The position numbers and the translations under genes were made by a program. Positions 20,378 to 31,070 of a DNA stretch of 38,943 bases are shown in pieces (positions within the stretch are counted from its first letter, which is position 1; each line of letters begins with the position of its first letter). This stretch comes from Treponema sp. (lineage in GTDB: Bacteria > Spirochaetota > Spirochaetia > Treponematales > Breznakiellaceae): NCBI GenBank assembly GCA_031263265.1, contig JAISGE010000143.1, positions 1-38,943 of the forward strand, in the 5' to 3' direction. Below the pieces are notes generated by a model. It did not search any database and was not told the DNA's origin. It was given only the letters and a program-made list of their open reading frames with translations.

Positions 20378-22204
20378 ATGGCAGTAGTACGGAAAAGTCG
20401 AAAAGTTGAAACAACGGAACATGAAGAAGCCATGGCTTTTGATCGGGAAAACCTGCTCAAGGAGAACAGTATAGACAAGGCTGAATCCACGATCCGGTCT
20501 TTCGAGGGTACCCTTGAACCAGGAGTTCCAGAAGCCAGGGATTGGGAAGCGCCGATGGTTTCGGAAGAATTACGGGACGATGAGGCTTTGGATGAAGAGA
20601 ATGGGGAACGGCCAAACGGCCGGGTGGTGGTGCGGACAAAACTTCGACGAACCTACCGGACTCGTTGGGAATCGGGAACGCCTCCTGAAGGGGCAAGCCC
20701 CGAAGAAGTTCCTGCAGTAGATACGTCTTATCCAGCTCCCGCCAAAAACCGAAGTCGGGGCGCATATAACCGTAGCGTGGCTAATGCTGCAGGAGGATCC
20801 GGGGTATCCGCTCCTTCTGGTGAAGGGGCTCCGGTACTGCCCCTACCGACTTTACCCAAGAACCTTCCTTCTATGCCGGACATTTACGGTAAACCTGAAC
20901 CCAGGATGGATCAGGATAATGGCAAGTCCCGGCTCTGTATCAATGAACTCATCCGGCTTAACATGATAGATCTACGGGAATTGGCAGGGTGTTACAGTAT
21001 TTCCCATGAAGATATGATGTCCTTAAAAAAGCAGGAGATTGTCTTTGCCATCCTCAAGGCCCATACAGAACGAGGAGGCATCATCTATGCCTATGGGTCC
21101 CTGGAAATACTCCCGGATAGCTATGGTTTTTTGCGGAGTCCCCAGAATTCCTACCTGCCTGGGCCAGATGATATTTATATCAGTCCCAGCCAAATCAGAC
21201 TTTTTGCCCTTAAAACCGGGGATACGGTCTATGGCCAAATCCGCAGTCCCAAAGAACAGGAGCGTTTCTTTGCCATGCTCCGGGTGGAGACGGTGAACTA
21301 TGATGATCCCACCGTAGCCCAGAACCGGATTCCCTTTGATAACCTCACCCCCTTGTATCCCAATCAAAAACTCGATCTGGAAACCATTACCGAAGATTTT
21401 TCCACCCGGATTATCAATCTTTTTTGCCCCATTGGAAAAGGGCAGCGGGCTATCATTGTGGCGCCTCCCCGAACTGGAAAGACCATTATGATGCAGAAGA
21501 TCGCCAATGCCATTACTAAGAACCATCCTGAAGTATACCTTATTGTGCTACTCATTGATGAGCGGCCTGAAGAAGTTACCGATATGGAGCGAACGGTCCG
21601 GGCAGAGGTTGTTTCCTCTACTTTTGATGAGCAGGCTTCCCGGCATGTACAAGTTACCGAAATGGTCTTGGAAAAGGCCAAACGGTTGGTGGAACACAAG
21701 AAGGACGTGGTGATTCTCTTGGATTCTATTACCCGGCTTGCCCGGGCCTATAACCAGACCATCCCTACATCGGGGAAGATCCTCTCAGGGGGTGTTGATT
21801 CCAATGCCCTGCATAAGCCCAAGCGTTTTTTTGGAGCAGCCCGGAACATTGAGGAGGGGGGGAGTCTCACCATCATTTCTACTGCCTTGGTTGAAACCGG
21901 AAGCCGCATGGATGAAGTTATCTTTGAGGAGTTTAAGGGTACTGGTAACTTGGAAATTAACCTTGATAGACGGCTCTCTGATAGGCGGCTCTTTCCAGCT
22001 ATCAACATCAAGAAGTCTGGCACAAGGAAAGAAGAACTCTTGCTTTCCGAAGAAGAACTCCAGAAAATATGGATCCTTCGAAAAGTTATCAACCCTATGG
22101 AAGATATCGAGATCATCGAACTGCTAGTTGACAGGATGAAGAAAACCAAGAATAATGAAGCGTTCCTCAAATCTATGAATACCGGAACTGCTGGTATGGA
22201 TTGA
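20378..22204 (+). CDS. rho: Transcription termination factor Rho with long N-terminal extension
   Basis: [20 protein letters not shown]-like region; [95 protein letters not shown]. Start ATG 20378 (MAVVRKSRK). Confidence 0.96.
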
Positions 22205-28504: not shown

Positions 28505-30703
28505 TTAGGATGCACCAACCTTAAACTTGGAGACTTCTTGCACCAACACCATAATGCTGTCTTTGTTCTGTACAGTCAACTCGTTTATCTTATTTACCGC
28601 TACATTCACATTATCCGCCCCTACGGCCATCTCGGTCATACCCTCGTGTATTTCATGGGTTACTGATGCAAGGTTCTGGCTCTCCTTAATCACCTCTTTG
28701 CTCCCTTGCTGCATCTCCTTTGAACTCCCCTTCACCAAAAGCGTTACGTCATTCACCGATCCCACCGCTTCAAGTACCTGTTTACTCCCGGCATTCTGTT
28801 CTTCCATTGCCTGCCGGATGTATTCTTCCTGGTCGGAAACCGTCCGTACCCCCTTGTCTATGGCTTCAAATTTGTTCAACACCGAATCAGTTGATTTGCT
28901 TATCTTGTCTATAGAATCTTTGATCTTCTTTACCACTAAGCCAATGGTCTTTGATTGTTCCCCGGAAGATTCCGCCAGCTTCCTGATCTCATCCGCCACT
29001 ACCGCAAAACCCTTCCCCACTTCTCCTGCATGTGCCGCTTCAATCGCCGCATTCATCGACAAGAGATTCGTTTGACTTGCGATGTTTTCCATCACCGCAT
29101 TGATCTCCAGCAAGCCTTCGGATTGCCGGGCTATTTCCTGTATATCTTCGGCTACTTCCTGAAGTCCGCTGCGCCCCACTTCAGAAGCAGAAGCCAGGGA
29201 TTTTACATTAGTCGTGTTTTTTACCAGCACTTGGGTTACCGATTGGATATTGGTAAGCATCTGTTCAATAGCCGCTGAGGAGCGGGATATGCTATCGCTT
29301 TGCGTATCAATATGGCCGTTAAGTTTATGAATCTCCTGGGTGATCTGTTCCATGGTTACACCGGCTTGTCTCACTCCGGTGGACTGATAGGTTACTCTGC
29401 CTTTAATGTTCTGGATATTGGCGGTAATCTCGTTCATGGCCGCAGCACTTTCCGTCATATTACTGGCAAGATCGCTTCCAATATTCAATAGACCGTTAGC
29501 TTGATCTTTTATGACGATGACTAAGCCTTTGATCCGTTCCATGGTAGCGTTGAAATACTTTGCCAAGTCTCCTATTTCGTCCTTTTGATATACATTCACG
29601 GTTTTCGTCAAGTCTCCCTCTCCTTCGGATATATCCTTGAGGGTATTCGCCACGATCACGATGGGTTTGGCAATCCTATGAGCAACCATAAAGGTGATAA
29701 CCGCACCGATAAGGATCACGGCAATGGCCAGGACAATCATAAACTTGGTAAGCGTATGGATATCATGCAGAATAACATCTTCAGGGCTCTCTACCATAAT
29801 CGACCAAAAGTTATTATGCCCTTCCCCTATGATAAATGGGTACTGTACCGTATAGACTGAAGCTTTCAGAAGCTCTGAATAGGAGGTCAACTCAAAGGTC
29901 TGTCCGTTACGTATGGCTTGTTCGAGCTGGGTCTCATATCCGAAATAGAAGGTGTCCACTTCCCGGTAGTTCTTACCAACTCGGTCGGGGATAAAACTGC
30001 CAATGATGGTTCCGTTGGTTGAATACACCGAGACTGCATAAATATCGTCATTGGTATTGATGATATTTTCAATAACCCCTTGGATGGCCTGGGCATTCAC
30101 GATAACTCCTGACGAGGCGATGACTTGCTTGGTCTGGGGATGGATAACCGGCACCTCTATAGTGATGGTCAAGATTTCCTTTCCTTGAGAGATCAACGGC
30201 CGGGGATCTCCTATGATCACTTCTCCCCTTGCCATATCTCGCTCTATTGATGCAACATCGGGGTAGGAAGTATATTCGGTCATTCCCTGTTCTTGATGAT
30301 AATAAGGGGCAAACTGACCGCTTGTGGTTGACCCAGGGGTTCCCGCATAGTCACTGTCCTGGCCGTCTAAGACATTTGACTTCCACACCCCAAAGATACC
30401 AATGAGGTCTTGCTCGTCTACCAATACGGCCCGCATATTTTCCCTAAACCAGAACCGTCTTATAGAGGGGTCAATGGTCTCGAAGTCCGCCATGATACCT
30501 CCCAGTACCTTGGCAACCCGGAGGTAGCCTTCATACTGGCCTTGAATAAACAACGCCTGTTGAGCAGCCAGACGATTCAAACTTTCTTTGGCACTTGCAA
30601 GCTGCACCTCAGAACTCCGATAAAGGCTTATAATGACAAGGGAACTTACCCCGATGATGAGGATACTCATAACCACCATAGTTAGCCTATATTTCAAACG
30701 CAT
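28505..30703 (-). CDS. Methyl-accepting chemotaxis protein (Cache-like sensor, HAMP, MA domain)
   Basis: N-terminal TM, periplasmic Cache-like region, HAMP, hairpin tip [39 protein letters not shown]. Confidence 0.95.
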
Positions 30704-30812
30704 ATAAAGCTCCTTAAACAGTACCTTCCTAGATTACATCTTGGCGAATTAAAAATACTACACTACTCCTTCAAAAAAGGAAATAAAACAAGAGAACACA
30801 AAGGACCTATAT

Positions 30813-30842
30813 ATTTTATAGGGGGGGGGGGGGGGGTGTAAA
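30813..30842 (-). promoter_or_regulatory. Candidate phase-variable promoter of the MCP gene with a poly-C(16) spacer
   Basis: Minus strand: TTTACA (30842-30837), C16 (30836-30821), TATAAA (30820-30815); alternative -10 TAAAAT (30818-30813) with 18-bp spacer. Confidence 0.7.
30821..30836. repeat. Homopolymer G16/C16 tract
   Basis: 16 consecutive G on the plus strand, intergenic. Confidence 0.95.
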
Positions 30843-31070
30843 CAAATAGAGAAATGAGACGGCATTTACAAATTCCTCCTTTGCGCTGGATGCCTAAAAT
30901 TATTTTGTTCAATATAAGCATAGATCACCATCACATGTCAAGTAAGAATTACTAGCAATCTAAAAAAATTACCTTGACTTAACATGAGTTCGATGAAAAG
31001 CTAAACGAGGAGAGGCAAGCGTCTTGCATCGTGGAAGCCCCGGATAGACGGCTTATCGGTCTCCTCATCT

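Follow-up and report, generated by a model that had tools for sequence, protein, structure and literature searches.

The locus raises the question of what a run of 16 cytosines does in front of a chemoreceptor gene, and whether a change in its length could alter the output of that gene. The window (the whole stretch of 38,943 nucleotides that was analysed) comes from a Treponema MAG (G000; 2.45 Mb, 76% complete, 216 contigs). Of its named relatives, Treponema MAGs from termite guts stand nearest, and the closest of these, isolate Gx481_bin203 (G007), has an MCP that is 97% identical. On the minus strand, the sequence around the tract reads CTATTTGTTTACA-C16-TATAAAATATATAGG. The tract (30821..30836, minus strand) is the sole run of C or G longer than 8 within the window and is not attributable to chance; 117 nt separate it from the ATG (30703) of an ORF of 732 aa (28505..30703, minus strand), which is preceded by the Shine-Dalgarno sequence AAGGAG (30710..30715, minus strand). 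Matches to HAMP (E=6e-11) and MCPsignal (E=2e-30) in this ORF bear out the first-pass annotation, which had called the product a chemotaxis receptor (methyl-accepting chemotaxis protein, MCP), and since CheA is present in the genome, this receptor has a partner. The rho gene, for transcription termination factor Rho, also lies inside the window (20939-22180, plus strand; TIGR00767, 711 bits). The intergenic region before the MCP gene gave no credible match to a riboswitch or another known RNA, and no terminator was found between the upstream gene and the MCP gene.

Candidate promoter hexamers around the tract

The first-pass annotation had described TTTACA-C16-TATAAA (30842-30815) as a phase-variable promoter, with TTTACA (30837..30842, minus strand) as the -35, TATAAA (30815..30820, minus strand) as the -10 and the tract as the spacer, so that slippage would tune the spacing as in Neisseria porA. 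The sequence is exactly as described, and our re-count of the matches gave the same values, i.e., 5/6 for each hexamer at 16 nt, or 10/12 with the alternative TAAAAT at 18 nt. Moreover, the sister species keeps TATAAA together with its 18-nt distance to TTTA, and tp0126 operates in this manner in another treponeme (PMC7864442). However, the supposed -35 is TTTACC in the sister species (4/6), and in a set of 89 non-redundant tracts located mid-contig in genomes of the genus, the window's tract is the only one flanked by a -35 and a -10 that both match at 5/6 and are 15-19 nt apart. At least one such match arose in 18.5% of the trials in which flanks were re-paired between loci (4% with shuffled flanks), and 1.2 promoter matches are expected in a shuffled region of the same size. 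Since the hexamer matches are thus at chance level, the hexamers alone are weak evidence, though the tract itself is real.

What is probably a better promoter for the MCP gene than the hexamers flanking the tract is predicted further upstream, at TTGACA-N19-TATATT (30941-30911), which ends 74 nt 5' of the tract. Its -35, TTGACA (30936..30941, minus strand), matches at 6/6 and lies past the end of the sister contig, so that it is not comparable there. Its -10, TATATT (30911..30916, minus strand), matches at 5/6 and follows the -35 at 19 nt; the sister species reads TATAAT at the aligned position. Throughout the genus, promoters of at least 10/12 were found upstream of the tract at 36/87 loci, as against 4.6 (maximum 12) in shuffles, with the -10 mostly 75-150 nt 5' of the tract. 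Neither this upstream promoter nor the leader ORF described below was mentioned in the first-pass annotation. Given the single match among 89 tracts, the 4/6 hexamer of the sister species, the better -35 with its conserved -10 upstream, and a leader start that also lies upstream of the supposed -35, we rejected the spacer promoter as the main reading and consider it unlikely that the tract serves as the spacer between a -35 and a -10. Another candidate, a -10 directly before the tract with the tract over the transcription start, was suggested by an excess of TATAAT at -7; it was dropped because the second A is not enriched and because leader starts are seen.

A leader ORF running through the tract

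Upstream of the tract, the Shine-Dalgarno sequence AAAGGAGGAA (30873..30882, minus strand) is followed by a properly spaced ATG (together 30882-30863), from which a frame is open through the tract. The resulting leader ORF (30758..30865, minus strand) has 35 codons, MPSHFSICLHPPPPPYKIYRSFVFSCFISFFEGVV, and would encode M-P-S-H-F-S-I-C-L-H-P5-Y-K-I-Y..., with the tract as codons 10-15 and the stop at 30758; TATAAA is read here as the leader codons TAT AAA. In the sister species, the leader Shine-Dalgarno sequence, the start and the first six codons are identical, and the tract and the next 27 nt are kept as well, the tract being C18 with the same leader frame as C16, whereas an 8-nt deletion separates the two species between tract and MCP gene and the 3' part of the leader is not conserved. 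This conservation rests on a thin comparison of two closely related species of one genus, and the differences between leader codons are too few for judging synonymous bias. A Shine-Dalgarno sequence and ATG that lie 5' of the tract and are kept in the sister species would be meaningful only if transcription started upstream of them. Folding additionally predicts a hairpin across the tract, also in the sister species, between the leader Shine-Dalgarno sequence and UCCUUUGUG just 3' of the tract (z = -2.6), the predicted partner being TCCTTTGTG (30797..30805, minus strand).

The length of the tract decides where the leader stops: 60 nt past the tract with C16, 55 nt with C18 and 2 nt with C17 or C20. 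All three frames end before the MCP start (57, 62 and 115 nt short), and none of them overlaps or abuts it at the window locus; hence, translational coupling does not explain this locus. A single-frame fusion of the leader with the MCP is likewise excluded, since the MCP frame is closed by a stop 33 nt before its ATG, the first stop after the tract lying 57 nt before the ATG. The locus is also no translational contingency gene with the tract in the main ORF, as the MCP ORF is not open from the tract.

Poly-C tracts and leader frames across the genus

The window's genome contains 63 runs of at least nine C, part of them contig-end junk, and all 11 genus members searched carry between 8 and 47 runs of at least 13 C, a count that again includes junk. 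Clean runs in the genus are mostly C16-C21, and at least one long run after TA is present in 96 of 121 genomes of the family. Where a tract could be assigned to one strand only, by a Shine-Dalgarno-started gene within 250 nt, the coding strand carries C in 34 loci and G in 2. All genus genomes used are consensus MAGs whose contig ends, as judged by eye, often coincide with tracts; an assembled tract length may therefore deviate by one or two bases, and tracts near contig ends were excluded from the tests. Many contigs of G000 (e.g., C13, C27, C36, C51, C60, C93, C108, C127, C158, C167, C173 and C207) break off no more than about 150 nt away from a poly-C tract, in some cases in junk made up of G and C only, which could reflect either short reads failing there or mixed tract lengths in the population.

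In the window's genome, 6 of 23 MCP genes have a tract (p about 1e-6, assuming ~2200 genes). Genes behind tracts further include those for outer-membrane efflux, beta-barrel and SLBB export proteins, proteins with Ig-like and InlB-like repeats, FlgO/CsgG-like proteins, a glycosyltransferase, an epimerase and an HD-domain protein. No MCP just behind a tract was found in G008 among the MCPs and tracts listed; hence, the link between MCPs and tracts differs between species. The window tract shares several features of contingency loci, being long enough to slip, located at a sensing or surface gene and repeated at similar genes (tracts are enriched at MCP and surface genes), and the dozens of runs per genome look built for random switching of surface and sensing genes. 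It is plausible that the window tract is a phase-variable element. The proposal of the first-pass annotation survives in this part (a homopolymer of the hypermutable type before a chemoreceptor, with tracts common and enriched at MCP genes), but not in the spacer role. It had also suggested checking related genomes for tracts in the same place: the sister species carries C18 there. MCPs at 50-63% identity mostly lack an upstream tract, which indicates that the tract is young at the window's MCP gene.

Some tracts are accompanied by repeated sequences. In G020, which has 135 long tracts, the palindrome GGGAGGCCTnGGCCTCCCAGACCCACCAAAAGTT is common to several of them on the 3' side (L280, L288, L289), a repeated module that is perhaps mobile. 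Further repeated modules are gttgaacctcgaaatttagctgttt, 3' of the tract in G113 (L296, L297, L301, L302), and gtaagtctttatattacaattaattata|C|gataattttcctgtcagg in G000 and G007 (L141, L152, L178, L267). One MCP of G000 (L168, C106:6574-6590, class I) has the tract in its own first codons and is, judged by this layout, an ordinary translational contingency gene.

Leader starts, defined as a Shine-Dalgarno match of at least 5 and an ATG with an open frame 12-50 nt before the tract, were found at 16 of 66 tracts versus 4% of other anchor points, and at 8 of 21 held-out tracts from further loci versus 7% elsewhere. Coupling was assessed at loci that have a main Shine-Dalgarno start within 190 nt and whose main gene is not itself open to the tract. 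At 12 of the 17 discovery loci (null 5.3), one other frame is open from the tract to an overlap with the main start, typically ATGA; because this pattern had caught attention in these loci before it was tested, their P value is too favourable. In a small held-out set, 4 of 5 loci showed the overlap (0.75 expected); the distance limit of 190 nt, the permitted overlap and the Shine-Dalgarno threshold had been fixed on the discovery loci. Pooled, 16 of 22 loci are coupled, compared with 3.8-5.2 in matched controls, for which tract-free real gene starts were taken at equal distances (no more than 12 in any of 5000 draws). Ten coupled loci have a visible leader start, which lies in the coupling frame as assembled in five and outside it in the other five. 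The main Shine-Dalgarno sequence is predicted to be less often unpaired at coupled loci (0.36 versus 0.51; p = 0.009). In other genera of the family, coupling did not exceed chance in a small set (3/6, P 0.33), and leader starts showed no clear excess. At three MCP loci in two species (L346, G002 C63:21400-27887; L175 and L150, G000 C121 and C43), the leader peptides that precede the tract are related to one another (VNKSLNVRTKIAI..., MNKSLGLGKNITT... and MSKSFCLGKNITY...), and those of L346 and L175 terminate on the MCP start in an ATGA.

The frame overlap across the genus suggests a phase-variable switch of leader translation and translational coupling. More broadly, we propose, at about an even chance of being right, that the genus possesses a genome-wide stochastic switchboard of poly-C leader ORFs, in which the frame would decide whether a ribosome reaches the start of a chemoreceptor or surface gene; the window locus, one of the six uncoupled loci among the 22, would be an uncoupled variant. 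Our literature search found no paper on poly-C phase variation in termite treponemes, nor on leader-ORF phase variation or phase-variable translational coupling.

Candidate mechanisms and known systems

For the window locus itself, we favour a mechanism acting through the leader ORF, which has good statistical support in the genus and indirect support at this locus, over one acting through a promoter spacer, and regard it as an evenly balanced proposition, drawn from sequence, that C16 is a slippage (contingency) element in the transcribed 5' leader of the MCP gene and not in its promoter. RNA polymerase would start at TTGACA-N19-TATATT, some 70 nt 5' of the tract. Ribosomes loading at AAAGGAGGAA and its ATG would translate the short leader ORF and read the tract as a run of prolines. 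The gain or loss of one C would then change the distance travelled by the leader ribosomes and, through the folding of the leader, the access of Rho to C-rich RNA or a weak reinitiation, the output of MCP. At many sister loci, one of the three frames would bring the leader ribosome into the main start codon, often as ATGA, and slippage would there turn translational coupling on or off, while the effect at the window locus would have to act via leader length, RNA folding or Rho. The DNA directly shows the leader ORF, how far it is conserved and where each of its three frames stops; from this we infer translation of the leader, slippage of the tract in vivo and a resulting change in MCP output.

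Possibly, the tract is inert, a decayed relic of a leader that formerly reached the MCP start and lost this reach through indels, its length now being without effect. The place of the window locus among the uncoupled loci and the 8-nt indel between the sister species in the stretch from tract to MCP are consistent with such decay; however, the Shine-Dalgarno sequence, the leader start, the tract and the following 27 nt are kept in the sister species (weak evidence between close relatives), and C16 and C18 share one frame, which leaves us doubtful of it. Least probable, and in our view very unlikely, is that the tract acts independently of frame as C-rich, G-poor leader RNA for Rho loading, its length tuning termination before the MCP gene: the RNA carries C in 34 of the 36 assignable loci, rho is present within the window itself and poly-C RNA is a classical activator and substrate of Rho, but the overlap of frame and start at 16 of 22 loci is not predicted by it.

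Most work on phase variation concerns pathogens and takes immune evasion as the explanation. The lineage described here, a gut symbiont, seemingly carries dozens of poly-C contingency elements per genome, enriched at chemoreceptor genes in the window's species, and hence taxis itself may be randomly diversified within a clone. The leader-ORF layout we favour would be a distinct mode of homopolymer gene control, and predicts an effect of tract length that recurs with a period of three and requires the leader start codon.

Among known systems, T. pallidum tp0126 and N. meningitidis porA have a G tract between the mapped -35 and -10 (PMC7864442). Like the window locus, they combine a surface or sensing gene with a long homopolymer in its 5' region, and tp0126 is treponemal as well, but their spacer is G, whereas here the tract is C and both a leader start and a better promoter lie upstream of it. 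In N. meningitidis opc, a poly-C tract upstream of the gene, as here, covers the -35 region of the promoter (PMC7864442), while the window tract lies about 70 nt downstream of the likely promoter. The T. pallidum tpr genes, a related gene family in a treponeme, also have a tract upstream of the gene, namely poly-G, 7-11 long, just upstream of the transcription start, which in tprL lies 4 nt after the tract (PMC7864442). It thus differs in having G on the coding strand at a length of 7-11, where the tracts described here have C at 16-21. In the translational contingency genes of Neisseria, Campylobacter and Helicobacter, a homopolymer lies near the start codon and slippage shifts the frame. The tract a few codons after a start is a shared feature, and the class I loci of the genus, where the main ORF is open to the tract as in the MCP on C106, match this type, but the window locus and most near loci have the tract in a separate leader ORF. 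Proline-codon leader peptides of the Salmonella mgtL type respond to metabolites, Mg or EF-P; they share with the window locus a short proline-codon leader ORF before the main gene and Rho as a possible reader, whereas the window leader would be set randomly by the length of its tract.
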